NCBI RefSeq assembly: GCF_000270185.1
Contig: NC_015516.1
Location: forward strand, 1,039,001 to 1,103,000
DNA length: 64,000 bases
Source: Melissococcus plutonius ATCC 35311
Lineage (GTDB): Bacteria; Bacillota; Bacilli; Lactobacillales; Enterococcaceae
Direction of reading: 5' to 3'
This document shows positions 56,727-63,508 of the stretch, piece after piece. Under the pieces are notes generated by a model. That model ran no database searches. It was not told the DNA's origin and saw only the letters and a program-made list of their open reading frames with translations. The stretch's first letter is position 1. Each line of letters starts with the position of its first letter. Made by a program: the position numbers and the translations under genes.

Positions 56727-58530
56727 TTAATTAATACCTATTACAAAATTAAATAATTTGTCAGAGTAGGTTGGATGTTTTAAATCAGTCTGCATGGTCT
56801 TCTTTAAAATCGTTAGCTCATCAGTCATAATGCCATCAACCCCATAAAACATTAACCGTTTCATCCCAGCTTTATCATTTACCGTCCATGCAAAAACTTT
56901 TTTTTCCATCTTCATGGGCGGCATTAATAAAGTTTCGGTTGAGCGTGCTGTATTCCATTGAAAAGAAATCAACTGGCCCAATTGGTGGTCCCACAACATT
57001 AAAGGGAACAATATAGCCAACATAAAATCGAGGCTCTTTTTGTTTCAATTGAATGGCTGTTTCATAAGTTAATGTATGAATAAAATGATGTTCCTTCAAA
57101 ATAATCGTTCGATATTTTTTAATAAATAGATCGATTACATCCGATGTGTCTTGTTTGGTTGTTTTAATTTCAATGATTAATTTTTGATTCAAATTTTTAG
57201 CAGTTTTTAAATAGTCATCAAATGAACAAATAGAAGCTGTTTTTCCATTTTCCTTAACGGTGAGTGCCTGTAGTTCTTTAAGTGTTAACTGGTTTACTCG
57301 TTTTTTTATCCCAGCTAACTGGTCTAAGTCAAAGTCATGCATGACAACGAATTGCTTGTCTTTTGTTTCATAAATATCCATTTCTACATAGTTGGGTTTT
57401 GCTTTACTGGTACTTATGAGAGCAGGTAAGGTGTTTTGCACACCATTAGTCCCATTTACACCACGATGAGAAATTGCTAATGGATAAATTTTTGAGGCAG
57501 AACGTAGATAATTGGCATTATAGATGACTACACCAATACTAAAAAGAAACGTCATAATCAATAGCAAACTTTTTCCTTTTCGTGTATAAGAAAACTTTTT
57601 CTTTTTTTTCACTGAGAACCATTCTGGTAAATCTGGAAGTAATTGATTCACCGACATATTTTCAATAATAATATAGAGAATACTTAAAGAGGATAAGACT
57701 ATATTTAATAAAAACAGGCATTGCAATAAGGTCATTGCAATAACAGCACTGATAAATGAATAGGAACTAAAAAATTGTTCAACAAACCACTGCCCTAAAA
57801 AAATTAGCAAGGAAGCAATTAGCAAGAGAAGAATAATAAAAAGCCAAATAGCTAACATTTGAATTACAAGGCGCCAGGTTTGATGACGTGTTTTTTTCCA
57901 ACTTATTTTGAGTGATTGACAAAATGAAATCGATCGAACTAAGATTAATTGTGGCAATGCAAAAATGAGTCGAATACCAAGATAAGTTATAACTAGATAA
58001 TAAAGTATATAGATAGAGATAAGAATTACCCGATTAGCAAAAATAAAATCTAGGATAAAAGCAGGTATTTTTATTTTAGCTAAAACATCCGAATGAAAAT
58101 TTATATAACTAATTGGTAAGATTAAAAAGAAATAAAATAAAAAAAATAAAAAAGTAAGTGGCCGAATTTTCTTAATTTGTAGCAATGTTCCATGAATGAG
58201 CTGCAAAACCGTAATAGGCTGCTTTTTTTTTATAAAAAAAACGGTTAGTAATAAAAAAGTAAACTCAAAAAAAGCAGCTAGAACAACGACAATTAATAAA
58301 AGAGTGAGAAAAAACAAAGCAAATGGATGATCAGTAATAATAGATGGCAGTAAATCATAAGACAAATAGGGAATTTTGCTATGTTTTAAAATAATGCGAG
58401 TGCAGCTTGATAACAATGGAAAAAAAACAAATAAAATAAAACCATGCATTAAAAGGACATTTTTAAAAGATAGTCGAGCTTCATTTAAAAACCGACAAAT
58501 ATGGGAAATACTTAATTGTGAATAACGCAT
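56727..58530 (-). pseudogene. Membrane glycerophosphodiester phosphodiesterase, frameshifted near the C-terminus
   Basis: Residues 1-~330 hold about eight membrane segments, a domain typical of long Firmicutes GlpQ-like proteins. The GDPD catalytic domain follows (ISHRGVNGTNGVQNTLPAL, YVEMDIYETKDKQFVVMHDF). At A8 (plus-strand T run 56898-56905) the frame is lost and stops after HEDGKKSFCMDGK. Removing one A continues as KKVFAWTVNDKAGMKRLMFY, the expected last strands of the barrel, to 56727. The full protein would be ~600 residues. It hydrolyses glycerophosphodiesters at the membrane, perhaps in teichoic-acid turnover. Confidence 0.8.
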
Positions 58531-58882: not shown

Positions 58883-60238
58883 ATGACCAAAGAAAAAAAA
58901 GATAAAGGAAAATTATTCCATTATGCGAATGGACCAAGTTTAGAAGAAATTAACAATACAGTTGCCGTACCTAAAAATGCTGGCTTTTTTAAAATGTTAC
59001 TTGCTTACAGTGGACCGGGAGCATTGGTTGCCGTTGGCTATATGGATCCTGGAAATTGGATTACTTCAATTGCTGGAGGAGCAGAACATAAATATATCTT
59101 GTTAAGTGTTATTCTTTTTTCAAGTTTGATAGCAATGTTATTACAAAGCATGGCGGCAAAGTTGGGCATTGTTACGGGTCATGATTTAGCACAGGCAACT
59201 AGAGCACATACAAGTAAAAAATTAGGCTTTGTTTTGTGGATAATTACAGAATTAGCCATTATGGCAACAGATATTGCTGAAATTATTGGTGGGGCGGTTG
59301 CATTAGAGCTACTATTCGGGTTTCCTTTGTTATTGGGTGTATTAATTACAGCATTTGATGTCTTACTTTTGCTGTTTTTAACCAAATTAGGATTTCGAAA
59401 AATTGAAGTGATTGTTGTTAGTTTGATTACCATTGTTTTTTTTGTATTTGCCTATGAAGTGATTTTAGCAAATCCCAATATAAAAGAATTATTCATGGGT
59501 TTTATTCCGAATACTAAAATTGCTACAAACCAATCTACCTTATTTTTGGCTTTAGGTATTGTTGGTGCCACGGTTATGCCACATAATCTGTATCTACATT
59601 CTTCTATTTCACAGGCTAGGATGTTTGATAGAAAAAATGAGCAAGAAATCGCTAAGGCGATTCGTTTTACAATTTGGGATTCTAATCTACAATTATTTCT
59701 TGCTTTTATCGTTAATTGTTTATTATTAATTTTGGGAGCAGCCTTATTTTATGGAAAAAATAGTGAATTAGGAAAATTTGTAGATTTGTATGATGCATTA
59801 AAAAATCCATCTATTGTCGGAAAGATTGCCAGTCCTTTCCTAAGTATGTTATTCGCAATTGCTTTGTTAGCCTCTGGTCAAAATTCAACAATTACAGGAA
59901 CGTTATCAGGACAAATTGTCATGGAAGGATTTATTCATTTAAAAATGCCACTTTGGATGCGTCGTGTTATGACTCGGTTGCTTGCGATTATTCCTGTAAT
60001 TATTTGTGTAATAATTTATGGAAATAAAGAATCTGCAGTAGAAGACTTGTTATTATACACACAAGTTTTCTTAAGTATTGCTTTACCTATTTCAATTATT
60101 CCATTAACAATCTATACCAGTGATAAAAAATTAATGGGCAGGTTTGTCAATCCGTTATGGGTAAGCATTTTAGCCTGGATTATTACCATTATTTTAACCA
60201 TCTTAAACTTATTTTTGGTTTATCAAACCCTGTTTTAA
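58883..60238 (+). CDS. mntH: Nramp-family divalent metal (Mn2+) transporter
   Basis: 451 residues, about eleven membrane segments. The metal-binding motif DPGN is in [15 protein letters not shown] (helix 1), and the helix 6 motif [11 protein letters not shown] is intact. It is a proton-coupled importer of manganese and related metals in the cytoplasmic membrane. The start follows TGAGGGAT. Monocistronic. Confidence 0.94.
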
Positions 60239-60892
60239 ATAAACGATGAAGCTAATGAACAATTATCCGTTTTGATTCCTAAGTATTTTAGATGAATTCC
60301 TTATTAAAAAGATAAATAAGTTATACAATCATAAGTTAAGAAATCCCATTCGTTTATAGAGTAACAACCTGTTTTAAAATAAATTTATTTTGAGTGTATG
60401 GGTGTTAATGATAGTTTATCAAAACAAAAGTTACTATATTAAGAGAAAAATATAAAGTTTCAATTCATGAAGGTCATCTCCCTAAGTTGAGAAAAAGATT
60501 TAAGATAAGTTAAAAATAAAACCAGTATAAAAAACCATTGTTTAAAAACAATGGTTTTTTATACTGATTGATTTAAAAATATAAAAAATTATTGTTTTTA
60601 ATCGGTATAATAAAAAGTGTGTAACTCATTGGTAATTGGCAGCATACTAATGTAGTACAGGAATCTCAACATCTTAAATTATATTCTTTGAATGAAGAAG
60701 ATACGAAAATTTGCCCTTCAATAAATAATAAGAGAGCTAAATAAATAAACCATTACTTGAAAATATCTTCATCTGTATTTATTTATAATCAGATAATCAA
60801 CAAGAAAATAACCAATTGAGCTAGTGAATGAATAAAATCTATTTTAAAATAGTGTCATAACTTGCCTATTAATAGAAAGAGATGAATAGAGA
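60239..60892. other. Intergenic region between mntH and the LytTR gene
   Basis: About 650 bases. It contains the terminator at 60523-60568 and an open stretch at 60628-60744 that reads like a protein tail but has no start. No regulator-binding repeat like that at 61348 was seen before the LytTR gene. Confidence 0.5.
60523..60568. terminator. Terminator downstream of mntH
   Basis: A 20-bp perfect stem (60523-60542 with 60547-60566) with a very short loop and internal A6/T6 tracts. Confidence 0.8.
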
Positions 60893-61348
60893 ATGAAAAT
60901 TACAATAAATAGAATTTTAGAAAAATTAGATAGTAAAGAATCAGCCATATTTAATATTTTCCAAGTAACACCCTCTATAGAAAAAGCAATTAGTCTTTTA
61001 AAAGAAAGTAATTATACAATTGTTGCACAGAATATTGATTCCAAAGAATATGTTCAGTTAAAAATTTTAGATATTCTATATTTGGAATATTTAGAGCGAA
61101 AAATATTTTTTTATACAAATGAGAACATTCTTTTTATTAAAGATTCACTTTCAAATTTTATTAAACTATTACCAGAAGAATTTATACAGATTTCAAAAAA
61201 TACGGTCGTAAATTCTTTATCTATTGAAAAATTTTACGCAAAAAAGAATGGGAACTTTATTTTAAAAATAACAAGTCATGAAAATTTAATGATTAGTAGA
61301 CGTTATGTTCCAAATTTAAAAAAGACCTTAAAAGCTCTGAGTAATTAA
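60893..61348 (+). CDS. LytTR-type DNA-binding regulator
   Basis: 151 residues without a receiver domain. Residues ~50-150 match the LytTR DNA-binding fold: VQLKILDILYLEYLERKIFF, then FIQISKNTVVNSLSIEKF and the terminal MISRRYVPNLKKTL. The N-terminal ~45 residues are a short helical part. Such stand-alone LytTR proteins usually work with a small membrane protein that inhibits them (LytTR regulatory systems, e.g. HdrRM and BrsRM of Streptococcus mutans). Here a DUF3021 protein follows, with a likely operator in between. Confidence 0.85.
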   Translation: MKITINRILEKLDSKESAIFNIFQVTPSIEKAISLLKESNYTIVAQNIDSKEYVQLKILDILYLEYLERKIFFYTNENILFIKDSLSNFIKLLPEEFIQISKNTVVNSLSIEKFYAKKNGNFILKITSHENLMISRRYVPNLKKTLKALSN

Positions 61349-61385
61349 ACCACTTATGTATTAAAAATAACCACTTGTGTATTTT
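61348..61385 (+). promoter_or_regulatory. Predicted LytTR operator: two direct repeats 21 bp apart
   Basis: AACCACTTATGTATT at 61348-61362 is repeated as AACCACTTGTGTATT at 61369-61383, exactly 21 bp start to start. Two imperfect direct repeats on the same helix face, about two turns apart, is the known LytTR binding geometry. A TATACA box at 61416-61421 lies downstream, with no good -35, as expected of an activated promoter. Confidence 0.7.
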
Positions 61386-61419
61386 TATATGTAATTTTTA
61401 CGAAAAGTGAAGTAGTATA

Positions 61420-61452
61420 CAACTAGTTAAGTCTATGATAGTTAACTAGTTG
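61420..61452 (+). other. Hairpin in the leader of the DUF3021-ABC operon
   Basis: An 11-bp perfect stem (61420-61430 with 61442-61452) with an 11-base loop, just after the predicted -10 box. There is no T-run behind it, so it is probably not a simple terminator. It could stabilise the transcript or be a second protein-binding palindrome. Confidence 0.5.
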
Positions 61453-61497
61453 TTTGCTGCCTAAAAGTTTTAAAAAAGATAATGGGAGGATTCAAAA

Positions 61498-61884
61498 ATG
61501 AAATGGCGCACAAAAATAGCATCAAGTTTAGGCATGGGCTCATTTATTTATTTAGCTCTTATTTATTTCAATGGTTCAACAGTTGTAACTCATAAAACGA
61601 TTACCATGGTTTTTTTGATTTCTATATTTACAGGAGTTACAACTAGTATCTTTGAAGTTGAAAGAATCAGTTTTTTAACCTCCTTAATCATTCACTATAG
61701 TGTAATCACACTTTTTGTCTGTATTTTATATCGAATTAATTATCCTATTCAAAATTTCACCCATTTAATTTTGAGTATTGCAGTTGTCTATTTTGTTGCA
61801 TATAGTGTTGTAATATTTCAAAATAAATTAATTGTTAGAGAGTTAAACCACGATTTGAAGAAAAATCAGAGAGATAAATCATAA
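61498..61884 (+). CDS. DUF3021 family membrane protein
   Basis: 128 residues with four membrane segments (about 10-25, 36-52, 60-80, 90-112) and a basic C-terminal tail. This is the DUF3021 pattern, including TGVTTSIFEVERISFL after helix 2. DUF3021 proteins accompany LytTR regulators, where the membrane protein is thought to hold the regulator inactive. The ATG follows GGGAGG. It starts a probable operon with the ABC genes (27 bases to the next), driven by the operator upstream. Confidence 0.82.
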   Translation: MKWRTKIASSLGMGSFIYLALIYFNGSTVVTHKTITMVFLISIFTGVTTSIFEVERISFLTSLIIHYSVITLFVCILYRINYPIQNFTHLILSIAVVYFVAYSVVIFQNKLIVRELNHDLKKNQRDKS

Positions 61885-61911
61885 TCTACTAGATAGATTA
61901 GAAGGGGAAAG

Positions 61912-62766
61912 ATGATGTTAAAAATTCAGAATCTTCAAGTTAAGTATAAAGATGTTATAGCATTGGATCTACAGGGTGAAATGAATATTCAAGAAGATGA
62001 TATTGTTGGCATTCTAGGGCCTAATAGAGCAGGAAAATCAACCTTGATAAAAGCGATTACGAATCAGGTAACCTATACTGGATATATAAAAAAACCGAAA
62101 AATATTGCTGTTCATTTACAGGAAAATCCTTATCCCAATGTTTTGACTTGTCAAACGATTATGGAAGGATTGTTGAAAACTAAACTAAAAAAAGACGACA
62201 AGCTAATGGCATTGATCGAATATTTTGAATTTCAAAGTCTGTTAAAGAAGAAAGTAACACAATTGTCTGGTGGCCAAAAACAAAAATTAACGTTGATCAT
62301 GGTTTTATATCAAGATGCTTCTCTAACTTGCTTTGATGAAATGACAGCAGGTTTAGATTTTGAGGCACGTAATAGATTAATGGAGAAAATTCAAGAATGG
62401 TATTTAGGAAAAAATGCCACACTTTTGTTAGTCACACATTATTTTGATGAAATTGAAAAATTAGCGAATAAATTACTAATTATTAATAAAGGTAGTTTAA
62501 TCGATTTTGGTAGAGTTAAAGAGTTGTTTAAAAAATACATTGGCTATTCAACAATTATCGTTGAAGGAGACAGGAAAAAACTCACCCTTCCAACAGGCAG
62601 ACAAATTATCAGTAAGAAAGGAAAACAAGCTTTTTCTTTTTCCAGCAAAACAGCAGAAGAGGAAGTAATTAAAGTATTAGCCAGTTCAGGAAGAAAATTT
62701 TCCATTTCAAATAACAACGTTGAACTTATTTATTTGAATGCTATTAGTCAAAGTAAAAAATGTTAG
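61912..62766 (+). CDS. ABC transporter ATP-binding protein
   Basis: 284 residues. Walker A reads GPNRAGKST, with Arg where Gly is usual, but the GxxxxGKS pattern is intact. The signature is LSGGQKQKLTLIM, Walker B is LTCFDEMTAGLD, and the H-loop is LLVTHYFDE. It is probably functional. Two adjacent ATGs at 61912 and 61915 are possible; spacing from GGGG favours the second. The permease gene starts 10 bases after the stop. Likely exports or confers resistance to a peptide or drug; the substrate is unknown. Confidence 0.85.
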   Translation: MMLKIQNLQVKYKDVIALDLQGEMNIQEDDIVGILGPNRAGKSTLIKAITNQVTYTGYIKKPKNIAVHLQENPYPNVLTCQTIMEGLLKTKLKKDDKLMALIEYFEFQSLLKKKVTQLSGGQKQKLTLIMVLYQDASLTCFDEMTAGLDFEARNRLMEKIQEWYLGKNATLLLVTHYFDEIEKLANKLLIINKGSLIDFGRVKELFKKYIGYSTIIVEGDRKKLTLPTGRQIISKKGKQAFSFSSKTAEEEVIKVLASSGRKFSISNNNVELIYLNAISQSKKC

Positions 62767-62776
62767 GAGAAGTGAG

Positions 62777-63508
62777 ATGAAACATTACATCGAATTTGAA
62801 TTGAAAAATACCTTTGGATATAGTATTGGGATAATTGTTGGTGGATTATTACCATTAATGCTAGCTATAGGTGATTGTCACGCCTCCAATGATATAGAAC
62901 AAAATAGGGAGCTGGCAGAAATGACTTTTACAATGTGTCTGCCAATGATACCATTGGGATTAGTTATGCTGCCTTTTACGATCGCTTTTGCTAAAGATAT
63001 TGAGGAAGAAATATCTATACGGTTTTCTTTATTCGGTTATACAAAACTGAAACAACTGTTTGCAAAGTTTATTTCAATCCTTTTTATGGTTAATGGTATT
63101 TGTCTTCTCTATTTTCTGGTACTACAAGTTGTTCTTCCTTTACCTGTTCCTAGTTTAGCCGCCTTATTATTAATGATCTTTGGAATTTTAATAGTTACTA
63201 TTTCTTTTTATTTTTTAGCATTTACTATTGCTTGGTTTTTTAAGGGATTTAATACTGTACAAGGAATTGCCATGGTTGCCTATTTTTGAATTGCTATCCT
63301 CACTGGTACAATTGGTAGTTTTGAATTTACAGGAATAATGAAAAAAATATCAGATTTTATTCCTTTCAACTCTTTCAGGATAGAGCTGGCAAAGCATTGG
63401 ACGACAACAAGCTTTGATATGTCTAATGTATTCATACATTTAATTGTTTTTATGGTTTTTACGATTTTATTATTTTGTATTGCAAATATTTATTCAATTA
63501 AAAAATGA
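62777..63508 (+). pseudogene. ABC-2 type permease with in-frame TGA stop
   Basis: The ATG at 62777 has AGGAG upstream; an in-frame open stretch before it lies inside the ATPase gene. Five or six membrane segments are encoded up to TGA 63287-63289, after QGIAMVAYF. The same frame then continues for 72 codons to TGA 63506-63508 and contains the last expected helix (FIHLIVFMVFTILLFCIANI). A TGG-to-TGA change would explain it, giving a ~243-residue intact protein. As written, the last quarter is missing, so the exporter is probably dead or altered. Confidence 0.75.

Follow-up and report, generated by a model that had tools for sequence, protein, structure and literature searches.

A LytTR regulatory locus of Melissococcus plutonius with a predicted operator between the regulator and DUF3021 membrane protein genes

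A LytTR regulator gene and a DUF3021 membrane protein gene of Melissococcus plutonius were found to be separated by a pair of direct repeats which carries the motif and spacing of operators in LytTR regulatory systems (LRS) and which follows the regulator gene instead of preceding it. This operator layout is a real, conserved and new wiring of a known system. The locus is probably an LRS variant in which an activator-dependent promoter lies between the regulator and the membrane protein, giving negative and not positive feedback. The sequence basis for this reading is the gene order, the operator, its spacing, its conservation in a clade of relatives and the finding of no operator upstream of the regulator; LytTR binding, promoter activation and inhibition by DUF3021 are what we infer. 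In published LRS the operator is located upstream of the regulator and positive feedback has been called globally conserved (Zou et al. 2018, PMC6193735). A layout with the operator between the two genes is not described in that paper, and as our search covered literature available without subscription, priority is uncertain.

Genes of the locus

The window analysed here is the whole stretch of 64,000 nucleotides (GC 31%) from a genome of 2,068,732 bases in two contigs. The regulator (R; 60893-61348, + strand) has 151 amino acids and matches PF04397 over residues 52-146 (E 1.8e-17), while a domain search of the protein found no receiver domain. The gene directly downstream (M; 61498-61884, + strand), separated from R by a gap of 149 bp, encodes a DUF3021 four-helix membrane protein of 128 amino acids which is the presumed inhibitor. 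Its match to PF11457 (E 5.1e-12) has 46.6 bits, above the curated cut-off of 24.7, and it is the sole DUF3021 gene found in the genome. The predicted structure consists of four helices (pLDDT 79, pTM 0.62), and a fold search with this model gave no convincing solved relative. Behind M are an ABC ATPase of 284 amino acids (61912-62766, + strand; PF00005, E 2.1e-17) and an ABC-2 permease (62777-63508, + strand).

The receiver-less LytTR, DUF3021 and ABC genes are located where a preliminary description of this DNA had placed them. One correction concerns the permease, which is not intact: an in-frame TGA (63287-63289) leaves it 170 residues out of 243, and it is probably broken. Beyond the TGA the frame stays open as far as 63508 and still resembles intact relatives. 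The Walker A motif of the ATPase reads GPNRAGKS, where arginine occupies a position that is normally glycine, compared with GSNGAGKT in a relative located beside a two-component system. The shortened permease and the glycine to arginine change do not fit a functional ABC-2 exporter. Since the permease is cut, the ABC output looks decayed; the TGA and the arginine reflect either decay or sequence error. The same kind of ATPase and permease pair occurs behind a two-component system in a different genus within the family (G057 and G058; L191 and L192), with 43% and 26% identity to the window's proteins respectively and, in G057 and G058, with permease genes that are open (249-250 residues). Next to these pairs stand genes for a response regulator and a histidine kinase but no LytTR pair, and the transporter seems to change regulators.

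Two further features were noticed upstream of the regulator. A perfect hairpin with a 20-bp stem flanked by T and A runs (60523-60566), which looks like a two-way terminator, is located between a transporter gene (58883-60238) and the LytTR gene. On the minus strand, a glycerophosphodiesterase-like membrane gene (56727-58530) is divided between two overlapping frames, probably by a frameshift.

Operator and promoter

The direct repeats are two 15-mers with one mismatch (61348-61362 and 61369-61383), 21 bp apart from start to start, which confirms the repeats of the preliminary description. Within them lies the predicted operator ACCACTTAT-12 bp-ACCACTTGT (61349-61378, + strand), the first base of which comes directly after the stop codon of R and the motif of which is as in Zou et al. 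2018. The full pattern ACCACTTAT-12-ACCACTTGT has a single occurrence in the genome. A consensus-only repeat scan was discarded, as it gave many chance matches and several sites in the wrong register, and a weight matrix built only from the half-sites that Zou et al. 2018 give (PMC6193735) was therefore adopted. By this matrix the repeat pair has 24.7 bits, the second best site on both strands of the 64-kb window has 16.0, and none of 20,000 shuffles of the R-DUF3021 gap reached 24.7 bits. The earlier assignment of the repeats as a LytTR/LRS-type operator is therefore supported at sequence level, given that the published motif is matched and that the repeats are conserved in relatives, where the pair is found at the same place.

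A -10 box, TAGTAT (61413-61418, + strand), lies 34 nt past the second half-site and has four of the six consensus bases. No good -35 upstream of it was seen by inspection of the R-DUF3021 gap, and the earlier view of a -10 box without a good -35 downstream of the repeats is upheld. A sigma-70 promoter scan gave a result at shuffle level. The locus therefore has the 9-bp direct repeats, with a spacer within 11-13 bp, just upstream of a promoter, that are typical of LRS. In Streptococcus pneumoniae the operator is ACCACTTAC-12-ACCACTTGC, and similar pairs found elsewhere are mostly 10 bp before the -35 box (PMC6193735).

An 11-bp inverted repeat, a possible 5' stem-loop, was observed at the expected transcript start (61420-61452, + strand; z -1.76, weak). 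Inverted repeats of differing sequence occur just past the -10 box in three lineages (61420-61452 in the window, about 4528-4548 in L065 and about 4530-4550 in L067). A 5' stem-loop is not claimed, as the window is barely above shuffles and L067 is no better than them. Matches to further operators of the LytTR regulator in the genome were no more numerous than those to a reversed-pattern control, and a wider regulon is not claimed either, the best secondary site falling within a LysM-type coding sequence.

Operator positions among LytTR loci

Relatives of the locus were not returned by a single-protein search of contigs, while a search with a three-row alignment gave seven loci. We considered LytTR loci from Enterococcaceae, Lactobacillales, Bacilli, one Paenibacillus-type genus (the genus of G635) and named genome records, where each locus was scanned for operators at three places with a search region reaching 30 nt before the stop codon. 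The operator is located before R in 69 of the 180 loci, between M and the next gene in 41, and between R and the membrane operon in 8, the window included. No operator was recognised in the other 62, so the matrix misses some, and only two loci have operators at two places. Many survey loci are closely related and the counts are therefore of loci and not of independent events.

The spacing of the two genes was observed to follow the third position. Among loci of the other groups with an adjacent membrane gene, R and M always overlap or lie at most 20 nt apart, and a gap above 40 nt occurs in 7 of the 8 third-group loci compared with 0 of the 172 others. The gaps in those seven are 79-149 nt, and in L065 the likely start of the next gene is about 120 nt away. 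The -10 box distance past the second half-site peaks at 32-33 nt in the other operator classes.

In the second class, a spot check found M to be DUF3021 and the next gene to be an ABC ATPase in L018 and L015, and in Paenibacillus-type genomes the next gene was another membrane-type protein. Loci L006-L021 and L134-L187, from Enterococcaceae and Paenibacillus-type genomes, have LytTR and DUF3021-type genes together, with the operator following the membrane gene and preceding the next one; these operators are ACCxCTTAG or GCAxCTTAT/ACAGCTTAT pairs and the -10 box is mostly at 33 nt. They resemble the window in the kind of protein pair, in the operator and in having the regulator outside its control, but R and M are both upstream of the operator and the next gene alone would be driven, as in an open loop.

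The third group consists of the window, L065 (Enterococcus sp. HY326, the same locus as L005), L016 (Enterococcaceae), L132, L066 and L068 (Lysinibacillus), and L067 and L069 (Paenibacillus), and hence spans Enterococcaceae, Bacillaceae and Paenibacillaceae. Six representatives form one side of a single branch with support 100/100 in a tree of 102 regulators, although the clade holds only about five independent lineages. All eight loci have paired repeats separated by 12 bp at the stop codon of R, and the start of the first half-site ranges from 16 nt ahead of the codon's end to 4 nt past it; the Lysinibacillus-type half-sites lie within the last codons of the regulator. The external matrix gave p <=0.003 in six of the eight. 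The operator of L065 scores lower (8.3 bits, p about 0.02). In L016 the half-sites were missed by the matrix and were assigned by eye as GCAACAAGT-12-GCAAGAAAT, which a TAGAAT box 33 nt further on supports. A -10 box is located 34 nt past the second half-site in the window, L065 and L067, and also in the Lysinibacillus-type loci, where the matches are weak. No operator upstream of R was found in the clade, either by the matrix or by the half-sites of each locus itself.

The genes behind this operator vary. In L065, L066, L068, L069 and L067 a CcdC-like membrane gene (DUF1453/DUF6622-like, partly below the curated cut-off) is followed by DUF3021; the operon of L016 begins with DUF3021, and that of the window has DUF3021 and then the ABC genes. 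L132 has a similar R-M gap and an adjacent membrane gene of 172 amino acids. Across the window and the six loci L065, L066, L068, L069, L067 and L016, DUF3021 is the only gene that is constant behind the operator. The idea of the ABC transporter as the conserved target is amended accordingly, relatives having a CcdC-like or other small membrane gene with DUF3021.

Feedback reading and alternatives

The LRS of S. mutans include HdrRM, BrsRM, SMU_433/434 and SMU_1070c/1069c; the membrane proteins of all five of its systems, two of which are ABC-linked, have been shown to be inhibitors, and the systems in which such inhibition has been shown are those of S. mutans (Zou et al. 2018, PMC6193735). 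As in that species, a receiver-less LytTR gene in the window is followed by the gene of a small membrane protein and an ABC transporter is present. The 9-bp repeats, the 12-bp spacer, the pneumococcal-type motif and a -10 box about 33 nt downstream are shared with LRS. In contrast to published LRS, the operator comes after the regulator gene, which excludes the regulator from the regulated unit; R and M do not overlap; and the feedback is predicted to be negative, where that of published LRS is positive. The locus thus does not have an operator upstream of R with positive autoregulation and is filed as an LRS variant, not as a standard member.

By family resemblance, DUF3021 may be taken as an inhibitor of LytTR here and in its clade. 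If it is, the operator's most conserved output would be the inhibitor itself and the feedback would be negative. The preliminary description had proposed both an inhibitor on the regulated side and negative feedback. DUF3021 was indeed found behind the operator in the seven clade members read, with no operator found upstream of R, so negative feedback is the natural reading of this placement; the inhibitor role comes from family resemblance and the sign of the feedback is predicted. Transcription may also run on from R into M, which would make the uncoupling less sharp.

Short two-copy repeats are common in DNA of 31% GC, but an origin of this pair by chance is extremely improbable in view of the shuffles, its uniqueness in the genome and its place in relatives. 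The locus could instead be decaying in the M. plutonius genome, with a circuit that has no present function. The permease stop, the changed Walker A glycine and the neighbouring glycerophosphodiesterase-like gene, which looks broken, would be expected from this, but LytTR and DUF3021 have intact frames, no site in the window matches better than the operator, and decay of the cargo need not affect the switch; we regard decay of the circuit as unlikely.

Two other readings, each somewhat less likely still, concern the wiring itself. The locus might be an ordinary LRS where positive feedback is kept because the regulator also activates itself from an upstream operator whose sequence has diverged beyond recognition, and the 62 loci without a recognisable operator leave room for such sites. 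A single regulator normally reads a single motif, however, and the upstream regions of the clade are no better than shuffles even against the half-sites of each locus itself, which makes this doubtful. To a similarly small extent, DUF3021 could be an output or a helper, for example as a partner of the CcdC-like protein or of the transporter in a membrane complex, with LytTR controlled otherwise, such as by a ligand that its short N-terminal part binds. DUF3021 is a regulated gene, as an output should be, and the CcdC-like gene accompanies it in relatives; against this, a LytTR gene adjoins every DUF3021 locus fetched in the survey and the membrane proteins of S. mutans LRS act as inhibitors (PMC6193735).

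In the negative-feedback reading that we prefer, LytTR would be made from its own upstream transcription and not from the operator at 61349-61378, and at rest a basal amount of DUF3021 protein would keep it inactive at the membrane. A signal would relieve this hold, and freed LytTR would bind both half-sites, which lie on the same face of the DNA, compensate for the absent -35 contacts and drive DUF3021 together with the genes behind it. The raised level of DUF3021 would then shut the regulator off, so that the response would be graded and self-limiting, as against the self-amplifying streptococcal LRS. In ECF sigma and anti-sigma pairs, too, a membrane protein holds a soluble activator and can itself be induced. 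The proteins of those pairs are unrelated to LytTR and DUF3021, and LytTR is not a sigma factor.

More broadly, the balance leans slightly towards LRS operators occupying three alternative positions, so that one conserved protein pair serves in a positive-feedback, a negative-feedback or an open-loop circuit, with the clade of the window fixed in the negative-feedback wiring. With three operator positions, positive autoregulation would not be universal to the LRS class. Searches for LRS should then cover the front of the membrane gene and of the target besides the front of the regulator. For the clade, regulator mRNA is predicted to stay flat upon loss of the inhibitor. If the placement works as read here, the same two proteins would occur naturally in three circuits that differ only in operator position, which would let the sign of feedback be compared cleanly in nature.
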